Positions 22,318-64,000 of a stretch of 64,000 bases of DNA are shown in pieces; position 1 is the stretch's first letter; each line of letters begins with the position of its first letter. Source of the stretch: Cymbomonas tetramitiformis (Eukaryota; Chlorophyta; Pyramimonadophyceae; Pyramimonadales; Pyramimonadaceae). The stretch covers positions 17,010-81,009 of the forward strand of contig LGRX02027218.1 in NCBI GenBank assembly GCA_001247695.2, given 5' to 3'. The notes beneath the pieces were generated by a model. That model searched no databases. It was not told the DNA's origin and was given only the letters and a program-made list of their open reading frames with translations. Position numbers and translations under genes: made by a program.

Positions 22318-22454
22318 AAGACGTCTACCGTAAAATCATGTCCAAATCCTAGTCGCACCCAAACGCGCAAGTGCGCACCACCTCTTCAAGCGGCTGCTTA
22401 GCCAATCATGGCCAAGATAGCAAGTGGAATGAAAACGTGGATGGGGCCACGACC

Positions 22455-23158: not shown

Positions 23159-24245
23159 TGCTGAAATCTGTATAGGCAGCCCTGACTGGGAGTCCCGGTC
23201 AGGCCCCTATGACAGATTCCTAGGACCAACACTGGACTACTGACTGATCTGTAGGTTCGTACTGTGACACACGCTGTGTCACAGGTAGGCTAGACACCGA
23301 GACCGTCCGAGACCGTTCCGGGTGTATCTAGCTTAGGGTTTATTTATCTGACACAGTTTATCCACAAGAGTACGGGACTATCTGATATCTGGTGTACTAG
23401 GATATTCCGGTAGGTCGTGGCCCCATCCACGTTTTCATTCCACTTGCTATCTTGGCCATGATTGGCTAAGCAGCCGCTTGAAGAGGTGGTGCGCACTTGC
23501 GCGTTTGGGTGCGACTAGGATTTGGAGATGATTTTACGGTAGACGTCTTTTGCGGCTGCGAGTCATGGGCACCGCGCGTTGCTATTGCTCGGTTGTGGCA
23601 ATGTTCATTTGCGTTGTTTTACCTGCCCTGATCCCGCTGGTTTACGTATTTTGGGCTGGTGCTCCGGACGCCTTCGACCACATCGACATTTGCAAGTGCC
23701 CCACGCTCTTTTCGCCGCTCCGCACGTTCTGCCGTTACGTCTTCGTTCCATTTCCGCCACAACACCCAAACGTGCTGCCGCGCATCATCTTTTCTCTGGC
23801 TTTCAAAAGTATGGCAACATCTACTCGAGCTCGCAAACGCCTATTGAAGGACTCCGATTTGGACGCCTCGATACGGCTTTTGGATGCGGTTCGGGACACT
23901 CCGACCGCTAGCACCCCACCTGTGGTGCCCCCTGCTGTTTCCAGCAACTCCGACACCGCTGTCGCGTTGCGGAAACATCTTGTTGACCAGCACGCCGCTG
24001 TTGACGTGGTCTACAAGGGGAGGTTGCATCGGGCTTGGGCCAAGGGTGTCCGCGAGGATATCCTTGGTTCCAAGAAACATCATTATCGTGGCACTGACGA
24101 CACCGACCGTCTCTCCGAGTTGGTGGTGCAGCTTCGGACCGAGTTTGAGTCCGCTGGGCTGGACTTGACCCCCTTTGACCTCGACGACCCCGCCTCTCTG
24201 GTTATCGAGAAGGTGAATGGGCTCCTCTATGACGTCTTGGCCCTC
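23159..24245 (+). mobile_element. TR-GAG copy 2, 3'-truncated
   Basis: The LTR at 23159-23412 (TGCTGAAATCTG to GATATTCCGGTA) and following leader match copy 1 with scattered differences, in opposite orientation. The gag frame (23550 on; Met88 equivalent at 23811) matches copy 1 for about 230 codons, then sequence identity ends abruptly near 24245 in a rearranged repeat. There is no 3' LTR. Confidence 0.85.
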
Positions 24246-24254
24246 GGGGCATGA
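23550..24254 (+). pseudogene. Truncated gag-like gene of TR-GAG copy 2
   Basis: The first 232 residues parallel the gag of copy 1 (MRLRVMGTARCY..., internal MATSTRARKRLL). The frame leaves homology at DVLAL and stops two codons later. The zinc knuckle and C-terminal region are absent. Confidence 0.8.
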
Positions 24255-32468: not shown

Positions 32469-33749
32469 ATATAATGTGGTGGCCAATACACCGGGGCTGG
32501 TTTGCTTAGACGCCTATCATACATTTTGTATAAAGTAACGCAATAGCGCACTCCCTCAAAACCTTCAGAAGCTACTCTATGTTTGCACCGCGCATCGCAC
32601 TTTAAAACCTTATGGCTTTCGGAGAATTGGAGAAGGGTGCCCTTGCTATCCTCTCTAGGCGACTCCATCTCCAGAACCGCGTTCTTGTAGTTTCCAAGAA
32701 AAATTATGTATTCATGTGACACATCTTTTCTGTCCTCGTGTCGCTTCACTTCGCACTTCCCGGCTAGCATGCACGACACATACAAGCACCAATCGCCGTC
32801 TCGCTTGTAATCCGCGTCTATTATTTCTAAGATTTGACCTGCTAGGATGTAAAGCTCTTTCTTCCAATACGGCTTGCTTGCACTTGTTAGCGGATCGTCC
32901 ATGTAAACTCCTTTTTTCTTGTGCCAAGGGTGGGGCGTCCCGAAAGCACATGTGCCATCTAGCTTAGGGGCAAACCCCTCTTGCTGCACTGTTCTCCCCA
33001 TGTTAAACCACCACCCAACATTCCATCCCTCCTTCCCTCCTTTCTTGCCTTTTGCCTCGTTTGCGCAGCCACGCTCTATTATCTTGCACGTTTGTGCATG
33101 CAACGTTGCTTCAAATTCCGTGAGTAGCACCTTTAGCCTTTGGTTATCACTTATGAGCACCGGCCGCCTGTTTCCGCGAATCCCACAAAATAAGTCCTCG
33201 ATCCTTGAAAGATGCAACGTTGTGCTCTACGCCATCATAAATAAAAGGTACGCTCCCAGCACTTTCCGGGTATCCTCTGTCTTTGTACAGCAATTTGTGA
33301 AACTCACTAACACTTTTCTTTAGTAAAACTTTTGTTGTCGCTGAGTTGAAAAATATATACCAGGCTTCAACTTCTCCTAAACTACGGTCGAACCCCGGAT
33401 ACTTTGCAGGCGGTAGCAAAATCTTTAAGCCAAGTCTTTGGAACGCACTAGCTCTACTATCCCCAACCACAGGACGTTCGAACGAATGCAATAGCTTCAA
33501 ACACACGATCGAGGCGTTGGATTGAAGACACGCAGCTAACAAAGGTTCGCACTTCCCTCTTGCATATGGCAAGGACGATATTATGATGTCTACTTGCGGG
33601 TTGAATTCTGCCCACTTGATTTTCTCTAAGTCTAGGCGTCTTATGCCTTGCGCAGGATGCTTATCGCTCAGAAAGATCGTCTTCGGTTTGAACCGAACTA
33701 GGTTGTTGTAAACGTAGCGAGGTCCCTTACCACAGCAAAAATCCCCAAT
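32465..33749 (-). pseudogene. Amino-methyltransferase-like domain in the -1 frame behind the transposase
   Basis: From the A7 run (33749-33755) the -1 frame reads IGDFCCGKGPRYVYNN, a class I AdoMet motif I (D..CGKG) at 33743-33723, then TIFLSDKHP (acidic loop) and VDIIISSLPYA, matching motif IV of N6-adenine or N4-cytosine enzymes (usually (D/N/S)PP(Y/F)), here SLPY. It continues to VCLKLLHSFERP and AWYIFF, as in Dam-type folds. A second frameshift (+1) is needed near 33190-33215, after which the frame runs 250 codons to TAA at 32465 (GIRGNRRPVLISDNQ ... PAPVYWPPHYI). The altered motif IV and the second shift suggest decay in this copy. The function, DNA methylation by the transposon, is inference. 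Confidence 0.55.
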
Positions 33750-36517
33750 TTTTTTCCGTGAAACAAACTGCCAATAACTGCTAATAGAGGCGTGTATTGT
33801 TGTGCGATTGTGGGATAAAAACTAGTGCCTTTATCACATACCCTTGGTATCGTTATTTTAAATGGTAAATTTTTCATAGGAGCACACCTCGTTGACAACG
33901 CACTCCGTTTTCGTTTCGGAATCAACTTCCTCGCGTTGTCGTCGTTTGCATTGTCGTTCGCATTGTTGTCCACAACGCGCTCCGTTGTTTCATACGGTTC
34001 AATCTCGTCGCATGTCGCAATCTCCGCGTTCACATTGTTTTGCCCTATGGGTTCAGTATGTTGGCATACATCGGAGAGTGTTGGCGACTGGTTTGAAAAA
34101 AAGATTTCGTCCACCCATGCGTCGTAAGCTACCATTGTATTATGCCTATCACAGCACACTTCGAGCCCGCTGTTCGTAGGCCGGATTGAAGCTAACGCGG
34201 AAAAAAATAAAGCAAGTTGACCTTCTTTAATTGCATTCTCACTCCCTAAGATATGTACGAAATATGATTTCAACAAAATCAAGAGCTCTCCAACTTTATA
34301 TTGCGAATACCCATCGCTGATACCCGTCGCTGGAGGGTGTTCAGGGTCGCGCATAAGGGCGAGGAACTTTACCACAAGGGGAGCAATCTCTTTCCTTTTA
34401 TCCGCGATAGTGGAAGCACTCAACTTCTCGAAGGTCTTAAGGGAGGGAACGACATAGGAAGGACTGTCTGTAACCCCCAAGACGCCGGTCGTGCGCGTCA
34501 TAAGCTCGAGCATGTTGTTGTCAATCATAAGTAGCGCCTCCCGCCAAATAGCTTGTGTAATAACTGGAGTCGTAGGTATTGGGTGTTGCCCGTCGTAGAT
34601 CGTCTCCTCGTGCATGTATTTTAGCGCAGAAGGATGGAATACCTCGAGTTGGAGTTGCTTACGCAGGGTCATCTCGTCTTTCACGTGTCTATTCACGCAC
34701 TCGGGACTATTCTGCGTAGATTGGATCCCTTCTGGCATGAAGCCGAGAACCCACCCACCCCACTTGCCCCACCAAGTCTCCACGAACCAGTTGCAAATAT
34801 ACTCTTCATCACGCTTGTATAGTTCGATGAAGAGCTTGAATGCACTATCACGAGCACCAACGATGGTGATGTTGTGTATTTCCGTAACGCCATGCTTGAA
34901 GCCGTTAACGTTATGAGCGTCGTTGAATAGCGCGGTCTTCTCGTTAAGCTTCATCATGCAATGCGACCAACATATCCCTTGCGTAATCTCTTCCGCGACA
35001 AGTGTACAGAGGTTCGTAGGTAACCTCAAATGCTCTAGGACATGCGTGATGGTTTCCGGAAGCTTGGCGTTAGCGTTGAAGAAAGCGAGGGAGTGATCCA
35101 AAGTATGATAACGAGGTTCCCACACTTTCTGGAAACCAAGTTGCATAGCCGCGATCAAGCAAAAGTCCACTATTTGCGAAGCATAGGCGTCCTCGTGCGA
35201 TTTGATGGCGAGCGCCCCGAGACGAAAACGCTTATCCAAGTAGGAAGACCCGTTGCATTCAAGGGGTAAGCCTTGCCAGTTCGTCTTGTACGTGTCGTCG
35301 CGTGAGCGGTGATCCTTTGCGAGAAGTACCTCGAGTTTCCCCCAAGTGGTGTAAATCACGCACCACCTTTTGCGTTTCTGCGCTGCGACATAATCCTTGA
35401 CGAGTTCGGTGTAGTTCTTGTAAAGGGCACGCAAGTTCAACTTCCCTTTGTAAAACCGTTTCGAACGCGTACTCCACCCTTGGACGACAAGCATGTTCTC
35501 TAAGATATGCACGAAGTACTCAGCAGACTCGCAAGCAAGAATTGAGTTGAAATGTGCTTGAAGGTTCCGTTCATAAACGGAAAAGTCTTCATTCCAACCC
35601 GCCAGCTTCCAAGTAGTAAGCTCATCTTGGGTTGCTTGGGCTTCGAAAGGAATAGGAGGCAGGGTGTTCGCGGAATTCTCGGCGTAATGTTCCACGGTTT
35701 CGAAGCCGCTCGGTTGGAGTACTTGTCCTTCAAACATGCAAAGCGTCCCCGCCGTTTTGCGATCGGTCACGGGGATGGCCAACAAGTTGGAGGTCTGGCA
35801 AACCTCCATGAACTGACCGCAAGTCTTTATGGTTTTAAGCCCCAAGATTTGTTTGCGATTGTTGTACACAAAGTTCTTTATGACCTTGTACTCAACGTCG
35901 TCATCGGCTTCCATGGCTGTGGTGACTGCGGTACTAAGCTTCTTAAAAATGGCTTTAGGCGGAAGCTTTTCGTGGATCGCCTCCTTACACTTGTCCTTTA
36001 CAACTTTCGACATACCCTTTCCTATGAAATTAGTATGGTCGTGTGTCCCACGGGAGTACAAGTTGCATGTAACAGTAGGGCCTAAGGTCGTCCCCTTGAC
36101 AATTTTATAGTGAACTCCACAACCGTGAGTAAAGTTTAAAGAACACTTGAAGTTTTGAGTCACGGCAGAGGTTTTTTTCGATTTATATTGCTTGTTAGCC
36201 ATGGTCACACCCTCAGGGCTCAAGGTTGCCATCATGTCTTGGCACTCTACAAAAGATACACCGTTCAAGACCGTACTCCACACTATGGGGACACGGCTAC
36301 GCTTCCCCTTCCCCTTTGGTGCAACGAGGAAGTCCTCTTCTTCCTCTTCTTCTCCCTCCGAAGGATATATATCGTCCACATTTTTGCCCGGGCTTGTGAA
36401 CTCAAAGCCGTCGGGCTCAGCCATGTTATTTTCCTCTCGTTTGGCTACGCGACAACTCTTCGCATGGCATGGCGATAGCTCAACAGGTACAACGTCATGG
36501 ATGCATGCACCGGTCAT
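33698..36517 (-). CDS. Mutator-like (MULE) transposase
   Basis: 939 codons from ATG 36517; Met32 (36424, MAEPDGFEF) is an equally good start because the first lies in the terminal repeat. An acidic stretch (EGEEEEEEDF) is followed by a zinc-finger-like segment CSLNFTHGCG...C....HDH of the FLYWCH/WRKY-GCM1 type. The central region has TLDHSLAFFNA and GICWSHCMMKLNE, the C..H signature seen after the second catalytic Asp in MULE transposases. NSPECVNRHVKDE supplies a candidate catalytic Glu. It is expected to bind the inverted repeats and move the element. The frame closes at TAG 33698, 17 codons past a slippery A AAA AAA; the methyltransferase-like domain follows in -1. The superfamily call is by motif only. 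Confidence 0.55.
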   Translation of the reverse strand: MTGACIHDVVPVELSPCHAKSCRVAKREENNMAEPDGFEFTSPGKNVDDIYPSEGEEEEEEDFLVAPKGKGKRSRVPIVWSTVLNGVSFVECQDMMATLSPEGVTMANKQYKSKKTSAVTQNFKCSLNFTHGCGVHYKIVKGTTLGPTVTCNLYSRGTHDHTNFIGKGMSKVVKDKCKEAIHEKLPPKAIFKKLSTAVTTAMEADDDVEYKVIKNFVYNNRKQILGLKTIKTCGQFMEVCQTSNLLAIPVTDRKTAGTLCMFEGQVLQPSGFETVEHYAENSANTLPPIPFEAQATQDELTTWKLAGWNEDFSVYERNLQAHFNSILACESAEYFVHILENMLVVQGWSTRSKRFYKGKLNLRALYKNYTELVKDYVAAQKRKRWCVIYTTWGKLEVLLAKDHRSRDDTYKTNWQGLPLECNGSSYLDKRFRLGALAIKSHEDAYASQIVDFCLIAAMQLGFQKVWEPRYHTLDHSLAFFNANAKLPETITHVLEHLRLPTNLCTLVAEEITQGICWSHCMMKLNEKTALFNDAHNVNGFKHGVTEIHNITIVGARDSAFKLFIELYKRDEEYICNWFVETWWGKWGGWVLGFMPEGIQSTQNSPECVNRHVKDEMTLRKQLQLEVFHPSALKYMHEETIYDGQHPIPTTPVITQAIWREALLMIDNNMLELMTRTTGVLGVTDSPSYVVPSLKTFEKLSASTIADKRKEIAPLVVKFLALMRDPEHPPATGISDGYSQYKVGELLILLKSYFVHILGSENAIKEGQLALFFSALASIRPTNSGLEVCCDRHNTMVAYDAWVDEIFFSNQSPTLSDVCQHTEPIGQNNVNAEIATCDEIEPYETTERVVDNNANDNANDDNARKLIPKRKRSALSTRCAPMKNLPFKITIPRVCDKGTSFYPTIAQQYTPLLAVIGSLFHGKKLGIFAVVRDLATFTTT

Positions 36518-36605
36518 AGCCGGATGACATAAAGAAAACTTATTCTAAATTAACGATGAAAATGGGGTATTCTAAACTTATGAAAAAATATTCTAAATTA
36601 AATAG
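36516..36605 (-). repeat. Right terminal inverted repeat of the Mutator-like element
   Basis: ATAGCCGGATGACATAAAG leads outward into three TATTCTAAA(T/C)T boxes. It overlaps the upstream ATG (36517) of the transposase frame, so the promoter probably lies in this repeat. Confidence 0.65.
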
Positions 36606-51458: not shown

Positions 51459-54400
51459 ATGAGCACAGAGGGGTCGGGTCCAGAATCCATCCCCTCCACA
51501 CCGGTATCACCAGTAGCAGCAGTGCTCGCAGCAGCAGCAGCAGCCTCAGAGCCTGCAGCCAATCAGTTCCTCTTTGCGTTTGACGACGTAGACGAGATGG
51601 GCCATTATGACAAGGATAGTCACACGCTTGTATGACAAGGATGATGTCAAGCTCCACTACACTGGTGGCAAGAACGAGGATAGGGCGCTCTTTATCAGGC
51701 GTTTCGTTGACATGGTAGCAAAAGTACAGCGGGCTTACGAGGCTAGGAAGCGCAGGCACATGAGGTCAGCGGCTTTTCACGCGCTCAGTCAGCAGGCGAA
51801 GAAGGCTTTCGTTGACTCCAAGCAAGACTACAGATCGTTGTGGGATAGCCTGCCCTCGTTCCTAGCAGGGGACGATCATTCAACCTCAGTCGCCTATGAC
51901 TAGTGGTGCGCTGCATATCTGAAGGATGGCATCATGGCCTCACACTCGTGTCATGTCTTGAGGGATCTCACCACGAGAGACGCTTTTCAGGGCTCAGTGC
52001 GCTGCGCACAACCTCCTTTCCATGAGCTGGCGCCAGGAGCGACATGGGCAGTCTGCAAGGTGTTCGAGGAAGGCGATGCCGATGGCGAAGAGTCTGATGA
52101 GTGGGAAAGCGAGGGAACCTCCACTAAGCGTCTCACGGGGACAGATGGCACGGAGGATTCTCACTATTTTTGGGCCTTGAGGGCTTTCATTGCAGAGCTC
52201 GAAGCCAAGTTCCTGATGAAGGGCACCAAGGAGAAGGAGGGCCTGTTGATAGCCAAGTCGCAGACCACCGAGCAGGACGGCCTCGCCTACGTGAAGAGCT
52301 GTCGCCGCAGGGAAGCAGCGCTCAACGCCGGCAAGATGGCGGAGGACCCCATTGTCAGGCAGGACATCGAGGAGTGCATTAAGGGTCTGCGCACCAAAGA
52401 GTACCGGGATCGCGTGTCCGAGCAGTTACGAGTCAGTCATCCTGCCCCCAACAAGGTCACGTGGGAGGACCTGGAGGTCATCGTGGAGGTGCAGGACAAG
52501 CTTAAGAACGATGCGGAGTCTTGGGCTCTCGCACTCCAGCAGGAGCTGGTTCGCAGGCTCACCTGCGTGTACTCTTGCTACGAGGCCAGGCAGCTGGGGC
52601 TTGACCTGGCTGCACTAGTGTCCGCCATGAGGCGCTCTGGTCCTGCCCCCAAGACCGGAGACAGACGCAGGGACCCCAGGAAGAAGGAGTCAACACAGCA
52701 TGGTGGTGATGACGCCAAGAAGCCTTCGAGGGAGGTGAACAATGCAGAACGCCAGAAGCCCACCTACGGCAGGGTTCCACCACATGACGCTTCAAAGGAG
52801 TTCCAGTGTGATTGGTGCTTCACACGCTTGCCCCACCCTCCGGAGCGTTGCTACACGGGGTGCCGTGATGCCCGCGTGCCTCCGAACTTCCACAAGGACA
52901 GGCAGAACTCGAGGTGGCCGAATGAGGTCAAGAATGCCCAGATGCGTGCTTACAACATCGCGCACCGCTTCGAGAACAACAAGATGGGGATCACCACGAA
53001 GGAGTGGCTTAAGCTGCCAGAGGCCAAGCAGAAGCAACCGCAGCAGCAGCAGCAGCAGCAGGTGGCAGCCAGCGCTGAGGTCAAGGAGAAGCTCGCTGCA
53101 GAGTTGACAGGCCTTCAGACAGGGACACCTCCAAAGGGGGACAAGGGCGCCGATGCACAGGCCCAGTCAGAGGACAGCGATGCTGAGACTGAGTACAACT
53201 CCAACTTCAACCAGCAGGCTGAGTATGAGGAGGATGAGAAGGACTGCCCTGCTGATGATGGGCTGGAAGATAGTCATGATGTTGGCATCAGTCACGCACC
53301 AGGTCTCCAGGCCAGGGCCGCAGTCGCCCTGGGCAGCACTCAGAAGATGCAGAGCTTCCAGGTCAAGACGCCGGAGGAGTTCGACAAGGCCGCTCAGGTG
53401 CCCAGAGCCGTTCCTCCCAACGTCCTCAGCAGGAAGTTTCACCTGCTGGCTTCCAACCTTCGCAGTTCCGTGCGCACTTGCTCGCAGATTGCGGCCATTT
53501 TGATATCCCAGCACGCCATCGACCTCCCAAAGGACATCGAGAACCTCCTGGCGCTGGAGGAGCTCATGGGCAACGAGCCGAATAATGCGACAGAGCAACC
53601 CACCGAGGTCAACGAGCATGAACTTGAGGACGCGCACGCCACAGTGGTGCAGGGGGTAAGAGAGGGAGCAGATAGTGCAGAACACCGCACGACCGAGGAG
53701 GTGCCGCTGGACGAGATGCCCGACGGCGTGGTCGACAGTGCCGCCGCCCGGTGTGCAGCCGCTGCCTGTGTGAACGACCTGGGGGTGGTTGACTTCAGCG
53801 ACCATGGACATGTTCGAGCTGGCACCATCAAGACCCACGCCTACGACGCGCTGAGGGCGAAGATGAAGCAGCACCTGACCGACGAGCAGGTGTTGCTGAT
53901 GACTCAGGTTCAGCCCATCTGCAAGTTGCAGAATGCCACCCTGTATGAGGGTCTGGCGTTGGTGTCGTCTGGTGGTGAGCTTATGCTGTATCGGGCAATC
54001 CTCATGGACACCGGCGCCAACTGCAACATCATCTCCATCGCGGTCGTGAGGCGGCTGGGCCTCACGGTGTACGAGGCCAGCACCGACGCCAAGGTCACCA
54101 GGTGTGACAACAGCCCTACGAAGTTCACGCATTACTGCTATGTGGACGTCATACTGGCTGCGGGCACACCGCACATGACGCTTCACCGGTTGTACGCCTT
54201 CGTGACCTTCGAGCCCGAGAACTCTTGGGATCTGCTGATAGGCACCGGGCCGATGAAGAATTCCTTGATGATCGACCTCAAGCTTGGACGTGGCGTGGCC
54301 GTGTCACATGCGCCAACAATTTTGGGCATGGATGCTCAGGTGGTGCTTCCGTTGGTTGACATGACACCACCCAGGCGTCCCGACCTGCCCAGGCGGGTGG

Positions 54401-54640
54401 ACCCAGCGGTGTGTCTGAATTCGGAAATCTTTGGGCAAGGAATGGAGTGTGAGTGGCTAAAGCACCCACCTCTGAGCACAAGGGAGGAGAGATTTGCTGC
54501 TTCTGGGATTCAGCTTGAGCACATCGATGACAATGACGAGTCACCATTGGGTCACCAGCGCCTTCGCCAAGACCTCTTGCTGACCGCCCACGACCTCGAG
54601 CCATCACGCGAGCGGAGCTCGAGGAAAAGTGCAGTGTCGC
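51459..54640 (+). pseudogene. Gypsy gag and aspartic protease (damaged)
   Basis: ATG 51459 starts MSTEGSGPESI with an Ala run; the frame fails at 51633 because an 11-bp motif (ATGACAAGGAT) is duplicated 25 bp apart. It resumes as LYDKDDVKLHYTGG, meets an in-frame TAG at 51901 and continues from 51904. Capsid-like helices (LAYVKSCRRREAALNAGK) are followed by a possible zinc cluster CDWC...C...C at about 52808-52863, a Gln run (53039-53062) and acidic spacers. The retropepsin has catalytic DTGAN at 54007 and WDLLIGTGPM near 54229. The frame runs into hAT sequence near 54630. Gag would form particles and protease would mature them; this copy could not make a full product. Confidence 0.7.
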
Positions 54641-57600
54641 TGTCATCCGATATCGGACACAGGTCCGGATTTGAGAAAAGCATAGGTCCCATATAGGTCC
54701 GCGCGGTCCATCATAATACTTCGACAGGTCCCCTATAGGTCCGCGCGGTCCCAAAAAATTCGGTCCCAAAATATCAAAAATGTATGGATCTCGCTAGAAC
54801 AAGCGTGCTTGCGGACCGAATGTGATATGTGACTTCGCTTATATCTTATAGGAATAAACTAAGGTACATCACAAGTTTAAATTCACGATCGTCGGGGCTT
54901 CAGAAGTGAAAATTTACACTTTCGAGAACACATGTAAGAGCATAACAAATCGGTGAAAACTCCACGGAAATAATATAAATTAAACCTTTCCCATACATAA
55001 GAAAATAATGTCACGAAACCATATCAAACTGATAAAACAAATCGAAAACCAGAAACGAAAACAATATCACTGAGTGCGGCCTACTTAAATATCCTTTCGA
55101 GCTATTGCGGCCTTTTTCACAAATACCCAGTCTTTATCCACACCATAGTTGGCAACTTCCAACTGGTGCTTGTAAATAAATCGATCATGTGCATAATAAA
55201 AAGCTTGCCACCCTTTCAACTTGCCAGAGCGTTGCACATATTTGAACACGCCAATGTACCAACCTCTGTCAAAACGATAGGCTATCCATTTGCCTTTAAG
55301 TGATTGCGTAGTAAGCTCTTCAGGAGCTTTTGACACTAAATTGAATCCATCTGGCGGTACAAAGTCATCTAAACACTGGGATTCCTGGACATTATCACTC
55401 TGACCCTCTTCTGCCATGACATCGGCCTCAACTGAGTCCTCATTGATATCATCGTTGGCGTCATTGGTAACATCGTCCTGCTCATCATCATCGCTTGCAT
55501 CGAAAATGCCTTCCAGCACAGCCTTCGCATCACATCGATTTGATTTCCTGTTTTTCTTTGGCTTTGCACACCGAACTGACTTGCCACTATTTCGGGCTTT
55601 CGCTGCACACCAGAGCTTATACGCTCGCATGCAGATGTCATGAACAGCCCGTTTGTCGGAAATAGCTGGCCCATTGATATTGACCATCATCAACATAGAA
55701 AGCAAAGAGCTGCCCATACGATTACGCTTGTCTGTTTTGATCCCATTCATACAAGAAAAGCCGCGCTCACAAGGAGCATTGGCTAAAGGTAATATCATTC
55801 TGACGGCGACAATGCGCAAAATCTGCTCAAATGTTGAGCAGTGCCTTGCACTTTTGAAATAGTGCTCCCAAAACTCGTCAAACGCCATTAAGGATTGAGC
55901 TGCGGCCACACCTTCGACTGCGGCCTGCAGTGCTTTCTTATCATCATTTTCCTCAGCTTCTTTCAACTTCTAATCTGCTGCCGCCTGTGCCTCCTGTGCA
56001 CCTGCTATGCGATTGCTGATATCCGATTTCAGCGCCTCCCATTGCTCAAGAGTTACTTCTGTGTTGAAGCTCTCAGGTGCCTTCGAAAAGTGATTCATCA
56101 ACAACTCCAATTCCCCATCCCCATAATCACTCACCAAATTGTCATCTGTTGGAAAATTTGTAGGTGTAAATATACCGAATGCTGCGATAATATCTCGAGG
56201 GGGAAACCTGTCTTCGAATTCCGCAAACAGAGCCTCAGCAAATAATTTGATGTGCTGCACCACCACTGTATAGTCTGCATCAACATACTGCACTCGATAT
56301 TCACCTTGTGGGTGCTTAAAGAGAAAAGAGTCGGATTTTTCCGAATTCATTTTCAGAAGAGCTTTCAGTGTTACTCCACCTGGCGTCGCGGGTGCAATAT
56401 ATAAAGTTTGCAAACCACGCTTCGTTGACTCCACTAAACCCATAGCATAATCATAGTCTACCGTGTCTTTCTGCAGGCTGACACTCAAAATATTTAACTT
56501 GCTGAAAAAGTCTTTGTGAAAAGCTAACGTGGCTAGAAACGTGAAGGAAGTGACCTCCTTGTGTAAGACACTTGCCACTGCACACCCAGAAGCTTGCAAC
56601 CTAAACTCTTCCTCAAGTGCTGGCAATAACTTGTAAATAGACTCCACACTGTCACCCTTCGAAAGCCACCGAGTGACGACGTCAGAGAGCACTACTGTTG
56701 TGCCTTCGAAGCCTAATGCCTTCTGGATCGAGGCAAACCTGTGACCTCGTTTTGCTGAGCGGTTGAAATAGGAAGCGAGGCTGTGTAGTGTACTCTCAAA
56801 AGTTGAAAAGAAGGGAATGTCTTTACCAGCCCCTTTAGCACTGAGCTGCAGTTTGTGTGCCATACAGTGAAAAGAAAGCATACAGGGGTTCATGCACAGG
56901 TCCCCAATACGCAAGCGGATTGCAACTCCATTATCGGCACCAGTCATAACAGAGCACCCGTCACTCCCAAAGGCAAAAAAAGTCTCAGGCGACAAATCCC
57001 ATGCTCGCACTTTATCCACGATAGCTTGTGCAATAGATGAAGAATCAGCTGTTTCAAGGGGAACCAAGCCAAGGAACCGTGTAGCTGGTCTCCCCTCACG
57101 CACATACCAGACATATATCACCATCTCCTCAATATTTCCGATATCGTTGCTCTCATCAACAGCAATTGCAAAAGCAGGAGAAGATTTCACCTTAGCTAAT
57201 ATATCTTGCCTGATGACCCCTGCGATAAACCGCACGAATTCCTTGCAAGCATCCTTGTTACGGTATGCCTCCACGCCCAAATTGAAGCGTGAAGTCAATC
57301 CATCATCCAAGAAGAGAGACTCAGCTGAGAGGCACATAGAATGAAACTTTTCAGGAGGTATATTCAACTTAGCGATCTCGTATGCTTTGTGAAATAAGTT
57401 GACGAGGCCCGCACGCTCCTTCAGCAACGCATTTTCTTCAGCTATTTCCCAGCACCTGCGTTGCTGTATTGCGTTCTTTGTTGCCCACACATGATCCGAA
57501 CTCCCTTCGTGTAAAGCTATCACCTCTTGCCTCATACGCCCACAACCTGGATGAACAAAAATATTTATCTGCTTGGCTGCGATACAGGTTGAGCAGGTCA

Positions 57601-58190
57601 TTAACTTGGTAGTAGGATCAAATTGTAACCAGGCACGACCCTCTTTCCACCTAGGTAGAAACTTCCGGTCGCTCTCAAGACGGGATTTTGTCTTTCCAGA
57701 TGTTTTAGTACGCATAGATATTGCTGTCTCATCAGGCAGTTCGTTGGTAGCGAGCGACTTCCCTACATCTAGAGGAAACAAGTAGGATTTCGAGCGGGTG
57801 CTCTCAAGCTCTGAGCTAATAGGCGTATTCCAACGCACAAGTGCACACGAGTTCGCAATGGTGTCTCCATCTGAAGTAACTTCTTGCACGACTACACCTA
57901 TCCCAAACATGCAGTCACGCACTCTGACACCGGCAGTGATATCTGCGTACTTCTGTCCGTGCGCTCTGCGCTCGTCAGTAATAGGTCCACAAGCATCGCC
58001 AGCAGGCGGCAAGCTCGCAGGTTCTTGGGTGATCTCAACCCTTTGAGAATCAGGTGGAGGGGCAGGCGACTGCGACGTTTTCTCGGAAGTATCCTGCAAA
58101 AGCACAACGGAAATATGAGTTGACGGACATCGATATACGTATGTACGCAGCGAGGTAATAATGCGTGCGCTTGCGGCGATGTCCCCCTGC
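54620..58190 (-). mobile_element. hAT transposon inserted between protease and reverse transcriptase
   Basis: It splits the Gypsy pol region; Gypsy coding ends near 54630 and resumes by about 58195. The left part carries two direct copies of TATAGGTCCGCGCGGTCC (54693 and 54735). The element encodes a minus-strand hAT transposase. Precise ends and the 8-bp target copy could not be fixed: both borders contain AAGTGCAG in inverse orientation, which may be part of the terminal repeat. Confidence 0.7.
54700..55084. other. 3' flank of the hAT transposase gene
   Basis: AT-rich, with the duplicated GGTCCGCGCGGTCC motifs at its left side. No coding frame; it holds the transposase 3' untranslated region and element end. 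Confidence 0.4.
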
Positions 58191-58192
58191 AC
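55085..58192 (-). pseudogene. hAT-family transposase with internal TAG
   Basis: The minus-strand frame from 58192 (possibly spliced in after TTTTGCAG at 58096) runs 740 codons to TAG 55970. It continues in the same frame as KLKEAEEND for another 294 codons to TAA 55085. A BED/TTF-like zinc segment (CSTC...H...H) lies near residue 215. The catalytic core shows VDESND, then SDGCSVMTGADNGV and HCMAHKLQLS; the C-terminal dimerisation region has NAPCERGFSCMNGIKTDKR with the catalytic Glu. A last domain (GKWIAYRFDRGWYIGVF) resembles Tudor/Agenet-type folds, inferred only. It would bind the ends of the element and catalyse its movement in the nucleus; the stop probably inactivates this copy. Confidence 0.8.
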
Positions 58193-60374
58193 TTCTTGGG
58201 AGGCTCAGCAATCCTCGAGGCAATGGGAGCCGGGCTGGGAAGCCAACGTCGCGGAGCAGGATGAGGTCTTGCCGTACACCGTGCTGGACGAGCTTCAACC
58301 TCTAGGTGACACGACAGTGACCAAGGACGAGGCAGCGTGGCTCGACACTGAGCTCAATGCCACGTTTGGAGGACATCCTGACTTCAAGGAGGAGCACTGG
58401 GAGGAAATGCGAAATGTTCTTCGCAGGTGCAAGACCACTTTTGCCAACAGTCCTCACGATCTGACAGGCTACAAGGGCAAGGCGGAGCACAACACGTTCT
58501 CCATTCCTTTCATAGACGAATCCAAGGCCGCCTACCAGAGACCCAGGAAGTACAGCCCGGGCGAGCAGGAAATCATCGATATTCACTGCAAGGAACTTTT
58601 GGAGTATGGCTTCATAGAGCCTGCAGCCAAGCATTGCAGGCATGCGAGTAACGTCGTCGTGGCTGGCAAGAAGGATCATGAGACTGGCCTGTGGACCCAG
58701 ACGAGATTCTGCGTGGATCTCAGGGGTGTCAACCGGCACTCCCTCAAAGACAATACGCTGCCACATCGACCAGAGGAGCTCTATCAGAAGGTGGCGAAGG
58801 CCAAGTTCAAGACCACGCTGGATGCCACCAAAGCCTTCCACCAGATTCCCATGGCCACGGAAGAGGACAGGAGCAAGACGGCGTTCTGGTGGAAGAATCA
58901 GCTGTACCAGTACACCTCGATGCCTTTTGGGGCAGCTGGAGCCACTTCTGCGTTTGTGAGAATCATGGACTACGAGTTACGTCACTTGCAGCATTGTACA
59001 GTGGCATACGTCGACGACGTAGTGGTCTACACGGATTCCACGCCTGAGCAGCATCTGAAGGACGTTGAGGACGTGTTGCGCACCTTGGGGGACGCTGGCA
59101 TCCGATTGCATGCAGGCAAGAGTACCTTTGGTGCAGCCACGGTGGACTTTCTGGGCTACCGCATTGGTCATAACTCCATTGGCGCGCAAGAAGCTAAATG
59201 CAAGGCCATCCAGGAGCTTCCAAGCCCCCAGGACAAGACTGGGCTCCGCTCGATCTTGGGCATGATGAACTACTACAAGGGCCTGGTGGGTGAGCCAGGG
59301 GGGCCAAACTACTCTGAGATGGCCCGCCCTCTCAATGACCTGCTCAAGAAGGAGATCACTGACATCAAGGGAGCTTGGGGGAAGGAGCAAGATCAAGCAC
59401 TTCAAGACCTGAAGGATGCCCTCTGTTCTGGGAGATGTCTGAGGCCTATCGATTATGACAGACCTCTCATATTGTACACCGATTGGAGCACCTATGGCAT
59501 TGGCGCAGTGTTGGGCCAGAAGGACGATGATGGGAAGGAGTACATCTGCATGGCAATCAGCCGATCCCCGAGTAAGACGGAGAGACAGTACGCCAGCTTC
59601 AAAGGGGAGATGCTCGCAGTGGTGTGGGCAGTGCGCACACTGAGGCAGTACTTGCATGGAGTTCACTTCACGTTGGTGACCGACCACTCACCGCTCACCA
59701 CCCTGATGGAGAAGGCCGATCTCCAAGGGCAACACCTACGCTGGGCAATCAGTTTGCAGGAGTTCGACTTCACGGTGCAGTATCGCCCAGGAGCCAAGAA
59801 CAGCAACGCTGACGTGCCGTCTCGCTATCCACTACCGTCCACGACAGACGAGACTGGGGCGAGGCATGAGAGGGAAAAGGTGACTGCGTTTCACGCAGGC
59901 GTGGGGGAAGTTCACACGAAGGACTTCTGTGACAACTTGTGCTTTATGTTGGCTGGGGACGCTTCCCCAGGGGAAGAGGCCACGCCAGAGGTGCAGGTTG
60001 CCAACTACGGCAGGATGGCTGCCATGGAGCAGCTGGGCACGGGACCAGTGCATCGTTTATTCGACTTGCACTACCACGAGGAATTGGAGTGCAATCATGG
60101 GGACATGTTTGACACTGACTCACCCAAGCTGGTGACCGACTCTGGGAGGCTAGCCAGAGCAGCTTGGAAGGCGCTGAGCTTGGTGAGGCCTACGCGAGGC
60201 ACGCACGGCGAGGGAAGCCCCGCTGTGTACAGCAATGAGTACTTTGAAGGCGAGCGCATCTTAAAGCCTGAGAAGGTGGACACTAGGGTGCTGGGCAGGC
60301 AGTTCTTCTCGCAAGCTCGGGAGGAAGGTGTGGTGTGCTACGAGCCATGTGGAGGCCTCTGTGCTGGCCTATAG
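58161..60374 (+). CDS. Gypsy reverse transcriptase and RNase H
   Basis: Gypsy sequence begins within the first residues after the hAT end (about 58195, WEAQQSSRQW). Reverse transcriptase motifs are FCVDLRGVNRHSLKD, LDATKAFHQIPMA, MPFGAAGATSAFVRIMD and the catalytic AYVDDVVVYTD (Tyr at 59007). RNase H follows with LYTDWSTYGIGAVLG, GEMLAVVWAV and VTDHSPLTTL, giving the D-E-D set, then YRPGAKNSNADVPSR. The C-terminal 180 residues lead to YEPCGGLCAGL, which is the start of the methyltransferase motif I, and stop at TAG 60372. The enzyme copies element RNA into DNA. Confidence 0.9.
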   Translation: MRALAAMSPCTSWEAQQSSRQWEPGWEANVAEQDEVLPYTVLDELQPLGDTTVTKDEAAWLDTELNATFGGHPDFKEEHWEEMRNVLRRCKTTFANSPHDLTGYKGKAEHNTFSIPFIDESKAAYQRPRKYSPGEQEIIDIHCKELLEYGFIEPAAKHCRHASNVVVAGKKDHETGLWTQTRFCVDLRGVNRHSLKDNTLPHRPEELYQKVAKAKFKTTLDATKAFHQIPMATEEDRSKTAFWWKNQLYQYTSMPFGAAGATSAFVRIMDYELRHLQHCTVAYVDDVVVYTDSTPEQHLKDVEDVLRTLGDAGIRLHAGKSTFGAATVDFLGYRIGHNSIGAQEAKCKAIQELPSPQDKTGLRSILGMMNYYKGLVGEPGGPNYSEMARPLNDLLKKEITDIKGAWGKEQDQALQDLKDALCSGRCLRPIDYDRPLILYTDWSTYGIGAVLGQKDDDGKEYICMAISRSPSKTERQYASFKGEMLAVVWAVRTLRQYLHGVHFTLVTDHSPLTTLMEKADLQGQHLRWAISLQEFDFTVQYRPGAKNSNADVPSRYPLPSTTDETGARHEREKVTAFHAGVGEVHTKDFCDNLCFMLAGDASPGEEATPEVQVANYGRMAAMEQLGTGPVHRLFDLHYHEELECNHGDMFDTDSPKLVTDSGRLARAAWKALSLVRPTRGTHGEGSPAVYSNEYFEGERILKPEKVDTRVLGRQFFSQAREEGVVCYEPCGGLCAGL

Positions 60375-61340
60375 ATGTTGCTCCGCAGTGGGATGAAGGT
60401 GGATCGCTACCTGTATCAGGACATATCCCCGAGCAGTCGGACAGTTGCCAGGGCCAGGTGCACGGCGTTGCTAAGACGATATCCTGATCTCATTTCGCCC
60501 CGTGCGATAGAGTTTGAGGCTCTACCCCAAGATCTGCACGACACCACCAGTGCCGACTTCATACGAGCAGGAGCCCTTCAAGGACGCCAGTGGGTCATGG
60601 TATGTGGGTTCCCATGCCAGGATCTCTCCCCTGCTGGAACACTCACAGGCCTGGATGGCAGGCACAGCAAATTATTTTATGAAGTGGTTCGGCTTCTATC
60701 CACACTGCAGCAGCTGCAGCAGCAGAGGCCTCCAGGCTATATCCTGGAGAACGTTTCCCCGTTGTCGCACAGACTCGGGACCAAGATCAGGGACGAGGTG
60801 TTCCCGTACATTGCCAGCGTCATTGGCCGACCAGTGTCCTTTGATGCAGCACAAGCAGGCGCTTACGCACATCGATTGCGGGCGTATTGGAGCAACTTGT
60901 TCCAGATCCACCAGTTTCGCTCCGTCATGAGCAAGGTGGCGAGACCAGAAGGACGAATTGTATCGTCAATCCTATGCAAGGGCTGGCATCCCAGGCCGGT
61001 GATAAGAACAGACCGCGCGCCTCACTACGCGGTGAACGTGGTGGGAGAACCGCTGAGGGCACTTCCCACCATCATGGCAACGCAAGGGTCGAGAGCGTTC
61101 AGAAGAGCAAGGATGGGCACCGTGGTGCGCAACCAGGACGATGAAGACGCCGAGGAAGAATCTCGAGAAGTGAACCTCGACGAGAAGGCGCGAGCCATGG
61201 GCTACAGCGCAAGTGAGCTACGCATGGCCGATGGGCTGAACGACGTGGAATTGGCAAGCATTCTGGGCCTGGCCATGGATCGCAGGGCAATGGAACTGCT
61301 CATGTCGGTCGCAGAAGCGAGCAGGAAGGGCCTCCCTCAT
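60330..61340 (+). CDS. Retrotransposon-encoded cytosine-5 DNA methyltransferase
   Basis: The domain straddles the TAG at 60372: YEPCGGLCAGL before it and MLLRSGMKVDRYLYQDIS after it form motif I and its continuation as in DNMT3-type enzymes. The catalytic motif IV is GFPCQDLSPAG (Cys codon at 60615). Motif VI is LENV (60744-60755). Motif VIII is AYAHRLRAYWSNLF, a target-recognition region follows with LPTIMATQGS, and motif X is RAMGYSASELRMADGLND...LASILG. All key residues are present. It transfers a methyl group from AdoMet to C5 of cytosine in DNA. Its position between RNase H and integrase means it would be released with pol. Similar captures are reported in charophyte and dinoflagellate retroelements (established knowledge). 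Confidence 0.85.
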
Positions 61341-63100
61341 AGCGAGGAGTCCCCAGAGGCAGAGAATTCCCCAGGACAGCCCATCGCTGTAGACAACAAC
61401 TGGGCAGACCACGCGAGGTCGGACCTTCAGCAGAGGCAAGCTTTGCTGGCGGAATGGGTTGAGAATTCGAATGCATATACTCAGCAGGTGGCGAAGACCA
61501 TGACTCACCGTGACTGGGAAGAGAAGCTGCAGGTAATGTGCTCGCAAGGGCAGAAAGGTGCAGAAGGAATTGGGGCTCAGCGACAGAAGGCTGGAACCAA
61601 GAAGAAGAAGAAGAAGGGGTGGCAGCTCTACGCCATTGAGCGGTATCGTCAGAGGCACGAGAGTCACTTCGTGAAGGAGGGCGCAACTCCAGCAGCGCGC
61701 GTGGATGTGCCTGCTTGGAGTCCGCCTGCCAAAGATTCAGAGATGAGACTCCCCAGGTTGGCGTGCACCACCAGATTCGAGGACTTGATGGCCAGTGTGG
61801 CCGAGCAACAGGTAGACCGTGACAAGCATCGAGATGTACACAACGATGCATGGTGCCTCAGATGGTTGAAGTCCAATGGCAGCGTGAGGTTGCCAGAGGA
61901 TGGAGTTCGTCGTGTGAGGAGGCGCGCAGCACGACATCGATGGGATGAGGCTACGGACGAGATCTACATGATCACGCTGTCGGGCAAGGAGGTGAGAATA
62001 CCTAAGCCTGCTGACCGTCTTGCATTGGTCAAGGAGTACCATTCCAGAACTGGCCATTGGGGCATAAGGCGTGCGCAGCATCTCCTGTGGCAGCGCCATT
62101 GGTGGGCCGATTTGAAGAAGGACGTGGAGGCTGTGGTCACTCAGTGTGAGACCTGTCAGCGCGTGAAAACTCATTATGCGAGAGAGGAGGCATGTTTATC
62201 CCCCCTCGAGATCGTGTCGTTCATGTATCGTTGGTCGCTGGATTTGGCATGGCCTTCGAGGAGACAGACCAAGGCTGGCAACAACAGGGTGCTCATCATG
62301 ACTGAGCACTACACCAGATTCATAGTCTGTGTACCCATTCCCGACAAAGAGGCGAGGACCATCGCAGCGGCATTTCGCAGTCATGTCCTGGCTGTGTTTG
62401 GTGCGCCAGCAGAGTGCTTGGTGGATGGAGGTAAGGAGTTCGAGGGCGAGTTCAAGCAGCTATGCAGAGACTGCCTGATTGACCGACGAGTCACCTCACC
62501 AGACTCACCAGAAGGCAATGGGCTGACTGAGCGAGTGGTGCGCACTATGAAGTTTTGCTTCAAGAAGCTTCCTTGGAGAAGGGTCTCGATCATGAGTGGG
62601 ATGAGCAGCTCTGGCCGCTAGTGCTGAGTTATAATGCAGCACGCCAGGAGTCCACGGGGGTGGCGCCGTTCACCCTGTTGTTTGCCCAAGAGGCAGTGGT
62701 GCCGCCAGATTTGAAGCAGGCACCCAGCATAGATTTCGGTGCTGAGGTCGAAGATGAGAAGGATGCCAGGGTCAAGGACCTCCTCCGGAGAGCACAGGTG
62801 GTGAGGCGACTGATGGTGCACGCTGGTTGCAGCCTGGAGGTCGCACAGCATCGTGATACATTACATTATGAAGGGAGAAGGGGTGGGGGCTATGATGAGC
62901 CTAGGCCACACCAGTTTAAGGTGGGCGATTTCGTCTACATCAGACAGAAGCCTCGCAGCGGCATGGAAGTCGCGACCAAGTCCGCCATCTTGAAGCTGGT
63001 TAAGATACAGCGGGATGGTGTCGTGGTGCTTGAGGACGCCACCAAGTTAAAAGAGAAGAGCACTGTGCAGAGCATCGCGCCATGTCACCTACAGGTGAAG
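61341..63100 (+). CDS. Gypsy integrase with GPY/F-like tail (one frameshift)
   Basis: A basic linker (KKKKKKGWQLYAIERYRQRH) precedes the zinc-binding YHSRTGHWGIRRAQ...CETCQRVK (H-x4-H, C-x2-C). The core has Asp at 62241 (SLDLAW), Asp at 62424 (LVDGGKEF) and Glu at 62529 (GLTERVV); the last two are 34 residues apart, the classic D,D35E spacing. After RTMK the frame is lost near 62560-62570 and continues in the next frame as LLQEASLEKGLDHEWDEQLW, then FKVGDFVYIRQKP, a GPY/F-like module. Integrase inserts the DNA copy into chromosomes. Outside the shift all catalytic residues are intact. Confidence 0.85.
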
Positions 63101-63808
63101 GACCAGTATGACTGCAGTGCAGCCGTGCCCAGCAGACACCTTGCATGTGAAGTGTGCAGGAAGACGGACGGAGAAGCAGAAATGTTGTTATGCGACGCGT
63201 GCAACAAGGGGTGCCATTTATGGTGTCTTACCCCGGTATTGAATGAGGTACCAGAGGGCGAGTGGTTATGTCCTGGGTGCTTAGGCACGAGGGTGCAAGC
63301 CGCCAATGCTGAGGTACAAGCCCAGGAAACCAAGAACTCTTGGGCCCTGGAGGATCGATTGGGAATTAAAGAACAACAGCTGAACGAGAAGCTGTCCTCG
63401 GACATGCGCCTGCTTCCAGCAGACGTGGGTCCTCGTCGTGTGGTGAAGGGAGGCAAGTCGCAGCCATGGCATGCCGTCTCGTCCAGGGACATGCTGTTGG
63501 ATGAGGAGGACATGTTTCTTCACATGCCAGATCAGATTGATTGGGGCAGACAGGACAAGCTCTCTGAGGCCGTGCAGATCTTCATGCCAGGGCACTGGAA
63601 TGAGGGGCATCGCACGGTGCTGAGCAAGAAATATCGGGAACAGAAGGCAATGGCAAGGCAGCTGAGGGATGCACCTCTTGTGCCTGCTTTGGCTGAAGAA
63701 GAAGTTGAAAAACGAGGAGAATTGAGACATATGACCAAGGCTCAGGTGCGAGAAGCTAGCGCACTGCAGTGGGGCTTGAGCTGGTCATCACAGTGCCCTC
63801 CGAGGTGA
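62555..63808 (+). CDS. Integrase C-terminus with PHD finger
   Basis: This frame continues integrase (see the preceding entry) and then carries a complete C4HC3 PHD finger at 63145-63280: CEVC, LLCDACNKGCHLWC, then WLCPGC. PHD fingers commonly read histone H3 tails, so it may steer integration to particular chromatin, as chromodomains do in other Gypsy elements (inference). The following 170 residues are charged and end at TGA 63806, where the neighbouring frame takes over with the methyltransferase-like sequence. The frame has no ATG of its own; it depends on the upstream pol. Confidence 0.85.
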   Translation: MLQEASLEKGLDHEWDEQLWPLVLSYNAARQESTGVAPFTLLFAQEAVVPPDLKQAPSIDFGAEVEDEKDARVKDLLRRAQVVRRLMVHAGCSLEVAQHRDTLHYEGRRGGGYDEPRPHQFKVGDFVYIRQKPRSGMEVATKSAILKLVKIQRDGVVVLEDATKLKEKSTVQSIAPCHLQVKDQYDCSAAVPSRHLACEVCRKTDGEAEMLLCDACNKGCHLWCLTPVLNEVPEGEWLCPGCLGTRVQAANAEVQAQETKNSWALEDRLGIKEQQLNEKLSSDMRLLPADVGPRRVVKGGKSQPWHAVSSRDMLLDEEDMFLHMPDQIDWGRQDKLSEAVQIFMPGHWNEGHRTVLSKKYREQKAMARQLRDAPLVPALAEEEVEKRGELRHMTKAQVREASALQWGLSWSSQCPPR

Positions 63809-64000
63809 GGCGTTTGGCGACAGAGGTGGACTGGAAGTCCATCGATGGCGTGTGGGACCCATGGGCAGGTACTGGGGTCATCAGTGAGGTGATGGTGGAG
63901 CAATGGCCGCAGTTGAGATTTATGAATAATGATTGGAACTCTCAGTTGGGTTGGTCTGAGGCGCATGCCGCACTTCAGCCAGGTAACTATCGCATATGGA
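63750..64000 (+). CDS. Start of a second, Dam-like methyltransferase domain (runs off window)
   Basis: In the -1 frame relative to the PHD frame the sequence reads ELVITVPSEVRRLATEVDW, then VWDPWAGTGVISEVMVEQ (motif I, Asp at 63856), then LRFMNNDWNSQLGWSEAHA, the position of the acidic loop after strand 2. DPWAGTG followed by an ND pair is typical of phage-type N6-adenine methyltransferases and of the domains in some retroelements. Motif IV is outside the window, so the target base is unknown. It needs a frameshift near 63750 from the upstream frame. The domain call is by motif; function is inference. Confidence 0.55.

Follow-up and report, generated by a model that had tools for sequence, protein, structure and literature searches.

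We identified a second methyltransferase domain in the Pol polyprotein of a retrotransposon family of the green alga Cymbomonas tetramitiformis, lying downstream of a PHD finger and distinct from the C5-cytosine methyltransferase of the same element. The window, that is, the whole 64,000-nucleotide stretch of contig LGRX02027218.1 that we analysed, ends within this domain. On balance, we favour the reading that the window holds the N-terminal portion of a domain that forms the C-terminal end of a Ty3/Gypsy pol polyprotein and belongs to the class I SAM-dependent methyltransferases. In its X-I-(acidic)-IV order and its fold, the domain is similar to gamma-type N6-adenine DNA enzymes as well as to RNA enzymes that methylate adenine; its motif IV is altered (S-P-W-F), and it is proposed to methylate an exocyclic amino group. 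A sequence-only reading of this DNA had proposed a second, separate methyltransferase after the PHD finger of the Gypsy-type element, and this is borne out by homologues, by motifs and by a confident class I model; judged from homology and the predicted model, the domain is real and conserved, and it is probably enzymatic.

Table 1. Features of the element in the window (positions in the 64,000-nucleotide stretch).
Feature	Position	Strand	Basis and remarks
Gag and aspartic protease ORF	51904..54696	+	Open frame of 930 aa; DTGA at 54007-54018
hAT-like DNA transposon, between protease and reverse transcriptase parts	54697..58118 (borders approximate)	-	Minus-strand ORFs
Reverse transcriptase and RNase H ORF	58119..60374	+	Pfam RVT_1 and RT_RNaseH; YVDD at 59007-59018
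C5-cytosine methyltransferase	60375..61350 (end approximate)	+	Pfam DNA_methylase, E 7.9e-10
Integrase, H2C2 zinc-binding part and rve core	62007..62621	+	Pfam Integrase_H2C2, E 2.7e-15; rve, E 2e-7, just below cut-off
Integrase C-terminal part, PHD finger and spacer ORF	62531..63808	+	Open frame of 425 aa
PHD finger	63143..63280	+	Pfam PHD, E 2.6e-10
Second methyltransferase domain, about its first third	63760..64000	+	Homology and motifs; the rest, including motif IV, lies past the window

From 5' to 3', the parts of the element are protease, reverse transcriptase-RNase H, C5-methyltransferase, integrase, PHD finger and second methyltransferase domain; its 3' end is beyond the window. We class it from its reverse transcriptase as a Ty3/Gypsy-type LTR retrotransposon family of C. 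tetramitiformis. The best solved match of the reverse transcriptase-RNase H region was Ty3 Gag-Pol (E 2.8e-66), and reverse transcriptase, RNase H, H2C2 and rve follow one another in the Ty3/Gypsy order, with rve slightly below its cut-off. Pfam matches of the first ORF to Asp_protease_2 and gag-asp_proteas were weak and below cut-off. Among the minus-strand ORFs that follow it, 55085-55969 matched Dimer_Tnp_hAT under the cut-off (E 0.0089) and 55970-58204 matched zf-C17orf113 over it (E 8.1e-10), and these ORFs (55085-58204) suggest a hAT-like transposon inserted into the Gypsy element as a nested insertion; no convincing terminal inverted-repeat pair for it was found among the inverted repeats in 54500-58400. 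The integrase frame shifts near 62570 in the window copy, the same place being continuous in the related protein P0002, and a further frame change separates the PHD ORF from the methyltransferase, where P0001 and others are unbroken; both frame changes are thus absent from at least one other copy. An in-frame TAG (60372-60374) closes the reverse transcriptase-RNase H ORF, directly after a putative C5-methyltransferase motif I (EPCGGLCAGL, 60342-60371, assigned by eye) and ahead of the remaining part of that enzyme; it may be private to this copy or a readthrough stop shared with others. Because of the frame changes, the in-frame TAG and the hAT-like insertion, the window copy is broken and non-functional as it stands.

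The C5-methyltransferase lies between RNase H and integrase and shows a PCQ loop (60606-60638), LENV (60744-60755) and HRLRAYW (60870-60890). Its relative P0013 is a gene model in which the C5-methyltransferase is joined to the start of the second domain in one protein that has no PHD finger and lacks much of the integrase. The best solved match of P0013 was DNMT3A, weakly (E 7e-4), with M.HaeIII close (E 2.3e-3), which makes DNMT3A/B the closest solved relatives of the C5-methyltransferase, again weakly and by way of P0013. For the PHD finger, the nearest solved structures were those of BAZ2B, CHD4, WSTF, BAZ2A and KDM5/lid. Several PHD fingers of the BAZ2B, CHD4, WSTF, BAZ2A and KDM5 types bind histone H3 unmodified at K4, and our guess, by analogy, is that the finger could serve as a tether to chromatin carrying H3 in that state.

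The second domain begins in frame -1 relative to the PHD frame (62531-63808). Here the window reads the motif X-like TVPSEV (63790-63807), then motif I, VWDPWAGTGVISEV (63850-63891, with VWDPWAGTG from 63850), and then NDW (63928-63936), so that the succession of a motif I and an ND pair noted in the sequence-only reading is present in the frame given there. That reading had put it directly after the PHD region; it is indeed downstream of the PHD finger, but motif I comes about 570 nucleotides (190 codons) after the finger. Across all six frames of the window, a regular expression for motif I hit a single time; in 20 mononucleotide shuffles it hit 0.1 times on average and never more than once. 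This single count is weak on its own, and it is homology that decisively sets the domain beyond chance: with residues 395-490 of the protein read through from the PHD finger to the end of the window, 17 proteins among 113 candidates were found at E <= 0.01, the best at 2.3e-55. The 80-residue fragment alone had no match in Pfam or PHROGs, and a PDB search with it gave nothing useful.

All 17 proteins were counted as belonging to Cymbomonas, a prasinophyte, the eukprot rows among them by sequence identity, and the best of them, P0001, is 98% identical to the window over the whole stretch. Five Cymbomonas proteins (P0001, P0004, P0005, P0008 and P0011) extend beyond the window end, and each has SPWF 60 residues after DPWAGTG, followed by a conserved HVPS(Y/H)(Y/F). 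P0001, P0005, P0008 and P0011 reach GPIGRRCMW. Closure of the frame shortly after position 64,000 in all copies had been named as an outcome that would speak against a methyltransferase, and the copies do not behave in this way: P0001, P0008, P0011 and P0018 share a C-terminal end, EQAHI or EQALI. The other 12 of the 17 include P0006, whose C-terminal part is that of P0005; further gene models among them break off or diverge ahead of the domain or inside it. P0002, P0003, P0007, P0009, P0010, P0012 and P0014-P0017 stop or diverge ahead of motif IV, and the lack of motif IV in some models is expected for decayed copies or faulty gene models. The PHD finger and the domain occur in a single protein in P0004 and P0008.

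We then looked beyond these copies. A profile built from five of them picked out 47 of 1928 candidates at E <= 1, and a wider profile picked out, at the same threshold, at least 52 of the 7997 candidates sharing most words, with rows recurring between these and the earlier searches; no relatives were found in viral contigs (three scans) or genome contigs (one scan). This compact domain is shared by several green algae: outside Cymbomonas, its relatives were metagenome proteins and proteins of Astrephomene gubernaculifera and of what we take to be Chromochloris, a genus read from the label Chrzof1, at about 30-47% identity to the Cymbomonas protein P0018. In three metagenome proteins (P0063, P0064 and P0065), a PHD finger is followed by the domain in one protein, so the order of PHD finger and methyltransferase is no oddity of Cymbomonas; by eye, the N-terminal region of P0063 also resembles the C-terminus of the window's integrase. 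Seven metagenome proteins (P0029, P0040, P0045 and P0062-P0065) have a conserved F..x.xRPxYFD segment before the methyltransferase with, by eye, the look of a small beta-barrel, and the Cymbomonas proteins differ there.

The aligned relatives are conserved where a methyltransferase active site is expected to be. Motif I is covered by 39 of 45 rows and is exactly DPWAGTG in 16 of them, the others being close variants. After P0030 was set aside, as it covers both motif regions with unrelated sequence at motif IV, 44 rows were left for motif IV, which reads SPWF in 37 and SPLF, SPWW, SPDF, SPPF, SPSF, SPAF or SSLF in the remaining seven; its first residue is serine in 44/44, and its third is W in 38 and L, D, P, S or A in six. 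The distance from motif I to motif IV is 53-60 residues in the 38 rows, of the 45, that cover both motifs, again with P0030 left out. A (D/N/S)PP(Y/F) motif IV had been anticipated within about 40-70 codons, its absence being named as counter-evidence; S-P-x-F does stand at the expected place, but the canonical form is missing in 43 of the 44 rows. The strict amino-methyltransferase form (D/N/S)PP(Y/F/W) likewise appears only as the SPPF of P0078 (1/44), although the domain may act like such an enzyme. With a non-canonical motif IV in nearly all rows, the domain's activity may have changed or been lost. For a count of highly conserved positions we took the 32 rows outside the main Cymbomonas type, with 13 rows set aside as Cymbomonas type (including metagenome P0021, P0022 and P0030) and two divergent eukprot rows kept (P0079 and P0083, the label of P0079 resembling Cymbomonas-assigned ones). 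In these rows, identity reached 90% or more in 35 of the 184 columns tested, and P0018 carries the conserved residue at 33 of these positions; among the most conserved columns are residues of motif I, the acidic position and, in motif IV, S, P and F. Ahead of motif I stands T-x-x-x-E, with T and E in all 23 of the rows outside the main Cymbomonas type that cover it. Motif X has the form TPxxV, and by resemblance we take T-x-x-x-E as a putative motif X.

Family profiles did not place the domain among Dam-like enzymes, as the sequence-only reading had done. In Pfam, MethyltransfD12 (PF02086) matched 5 of 22 members; the best of these matches (E 2.3e-4, 21.4 bits) stayed under the cut-off of 22, and they were confined to the motif I stretch. 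It also matched, weakly, 4 of 10 further members scanned. Enzymes of the Dam/D12 group have alpha order, with the recognition domain between motifs I and IV, and a distance of 53-60 residues leaves no room for it. In the 22 members, Pfam reported no match at E <= 1 to Dam (PF05869) or MT-A70, two families for which profile searches had been proposed; the MT-A70 motif is DPPW, and motif IV here is SPxF. N6_N4_Mtase was matched weakly and below cut-off by P0072 (E 0.0075) and in 1 of the 22 members of alignment A4 (E 0.32). NCBIfam gave weak matches only for the 22 members, including BchM-ChlM in two (best E 0.0045) and a RiPP methyltransferase in one (E 0.019). Matches to Photosystem I PsaA, a membrane protein, had E >= 0.05 and were rejected as chance. 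P0001, P0005, P0008 and P0011 had no methyltransferase family match in Pfam, NCBIfam or PHROGs, and the domain profiles found no methyltransferases in PDB by sequence.

Phage methyltransferase profiles, which had also been suggested, linked part of the family to DNA methyltransferases. The PHROGs family phrog_799, annotated as DNA methyltransferase, matched 8 of the 10 members scanned when E <= 1 was allowed and 4 when E <= 1e-3 was required, and covers the whole core of P0077 (residues 65-218, E 1.1e-7), but the Cymbomonas protein P0018 had no methyltransferase match in PHROGs. A tblastn search with P0077 against 50,697 phage records turned up just two records, with a 28.7% match that spans 36% of the query, and P0048 found nothing in phages. 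The X-I-IV order and the short distance from I to IV are those of gamma-type enzymes. M.TaqI, type I HsdM and PacII are gamma-type N6-adenine DNA methyltransferases with NPPY or NPPF as motif IV; compared with them, the domain has SPWF, is shorter, and shows 12-17% identity over structural alignments. By its order and spacing, we class the domain as gamma-like rather than Dam-like and, because its motif IV differs, as a strict member of no named family.

The confident predicted model has a class I SAM-methyltransferase fold, with a Rossmann-like core of alternating beta strands and alpha helices and the glycine-rich motif I after strand 1. An earlier model from alignment A3, which had many partial rows, reached a mean pLDDT of 37.6 and was discarded. 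At the top of the re-aligned solved matches stood mostly enzymes that methylate adenine, with METTL5, type I HsdM and M.TaqI tied within 1 Z unit; D12/Dam structures were not among the 50 matches listed, an absence that carries no weight. Foldseek ranked O-methyltransferases, GidB and other small-molecule enzymes at the top by E-value, with KsgA at rank 11, a type I subunit at 26 and METTL5 at 27, at TM about 0.4-0.5, and this mixed ranking means that the fold leaves the substrate unsettled. Rather unlikely, in our judgement, is an RNA methyltransferase of the METTL5, KsgA or Dim1 kind, acting on the element's own or on host RNA and not on DNA. The probabilities we attach to these readings overlap, since the broad part of the favoured one, an active nucleic-acid amino-methyltransferase, also covers the RNA enzyme and the N4-cytosine enzyme considered next.

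A leading serine in motif IV is more usual in N4-cytosine enzymes, whose usual form is SPP(Y/F/W). The serine heading motif IV in every row, the SPPF of P0078 and the weak N6_N4_Mtase match of P0072 would all fit an N4-cytosine DNA methyltransferase in place of an adenine enzyme, and 4mC has been reported as a eukaryotic mark (PMC8885841). The order of I before IV, the spacing of 53-60 residues and the best re-aligned folds nevertheless favour gamma-type adenine enzymes, and N6_N4_Mtase was matched in only one of the 22 A4 members; we regard the N4-cytosine reading as unlikely. It is equally improbable that the domain keeps the methyltransferase fold without catalysis and serves the integrase as a SAM- or nucleic-acid-binding module. 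The residues taken by the third position of motif IV, mostly W, are consistent with such a loss, whereas the high conservation of motif I, of the acidic residue and of the S, P and F of motif IV is what a working active site would lead one to expect. We give almost no credence to the view that the open frame arose by chance or as a frame-shift artefact and hides no domain: the window copy is frame-shifted and ends at 64000, and its fragment alone has no Pfam match, but the strong homology, the conserved motifs and the confident fold contradict this explanation.

Under the favoured reading of an amino-methyltransferase, the polyprotein would provide an integrase linked to a PHD finger and the second methyltransferase. 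The PHD finger might hold the integration complex on histone H3 tails, and the domain might then methylate nucleic acid at an exocyclic amino group. The likeliest target would be N6 of adenine in the cDNA or the new insertion of the element, with the separate C5-methyltransferase of the same pol contributing 5mC. For the domain's product, 6mA is a tentative label. Two unrelated methyltransferase domains together with a histone reader suggest the writing of DNA or chromatin marks as part of the element's life cycle, which could be of advantage to it. A bolder proposal, which we hold tentatively and at less than even weight, is that the Gypsy elements of green algae encode DNA amino-methyltransferases of an undescribed family, with S-P-W-F as motif IV, fused to integrase and PHD finger; with the C5-methyltransferase in the same Pol, two DNA marks would be written and histones read, and new insertions would be pre-marked. 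Retrotransposons with one DNA methyltransferase are known.

Several described elements share parts of this arrangement. KnitGypsy-Dnmt3 of Klebsormidium nitens (PMC5890265), like the present element, is a Gypsy-type LTR element from an alga of the green lineage and has a cytosine methyltransferase in its Pol, in its case a Dnmt3-type C5-methyltransferase. The passages that describe it mention no second methyltransferase, and "PHD" occurs 0 times in the main text of that paper. C5-methyltransferases are also described in LINE and DIRS elements of Symbiodinium (PMC5890265), and DIRS retrotransposons with Dam-like adenine methyltransferases have been described (PMC5890265, PMC6338049). The latter likewise combine a retrotransposon polyprotein with an adenine-type methyltransferase domain; compared by description only, DIRS elements have a tyrosine recombinase and a Dam-like domain, whereas the present element has an rve integrase and no Dam/D12 match above cut-off. 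One passage in the literature can be read as placing adenine enzymes in Gypsy elements, but the sentence before it puts them in DIRS. In brown algae, the DNA transposon Ectocarpus Sola1-1 encodes a ParB-methyltransferase predicted as N4C/N6A, with green and red algal cases cited (PMC12477816). It too is an algal mobile element with a predicted N4C/N6A methyltransferase, but it is a DNA transposon whose enzyme has a ParB domain and is encoded by a separate 1104-aa gene, not as a domain of a retrotransposon Pol. The literature searched, as far as its texts extend, yielded no retrotransposon with a C5-methyltransferase, an amino-type methyltransferase and a PHD finger; the likeliest sources of an earlier mention are outside that scope, and any claim of priority would be provisional. 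"Cymbomonas" is absent from the main texts of PMC12344493 and PMC12695648. The Cymbomonas genome paper lists a cytosine DNA methyltransferase among the predicted coding regions of three scaffolds whose coverage exceeds 10,000-fold (PMC5741210). This gene may or may not belong to the present element; the finding suggests copy numbers high enough for 6mA, 4mC and 5mC to be base-called directly.

Elsewhere in the window, a 224-aa minus-strand ORF (33147-33821) looks methyltransferase-like by eye (GDFCCGKG ... DIIISSLPY) and overlaps a 948-aa ORF on the same strand (33698-36544); neither had a Pfam match at E <= 1. Finally, the ORFs at 19732-22335 (minus strand) and 23532-24254 (plus strand) share a near-identical N-terminal stretch, FYGRRLLRLRVMGTARCYCSVV..., and form an inverted pair of some repeated element.
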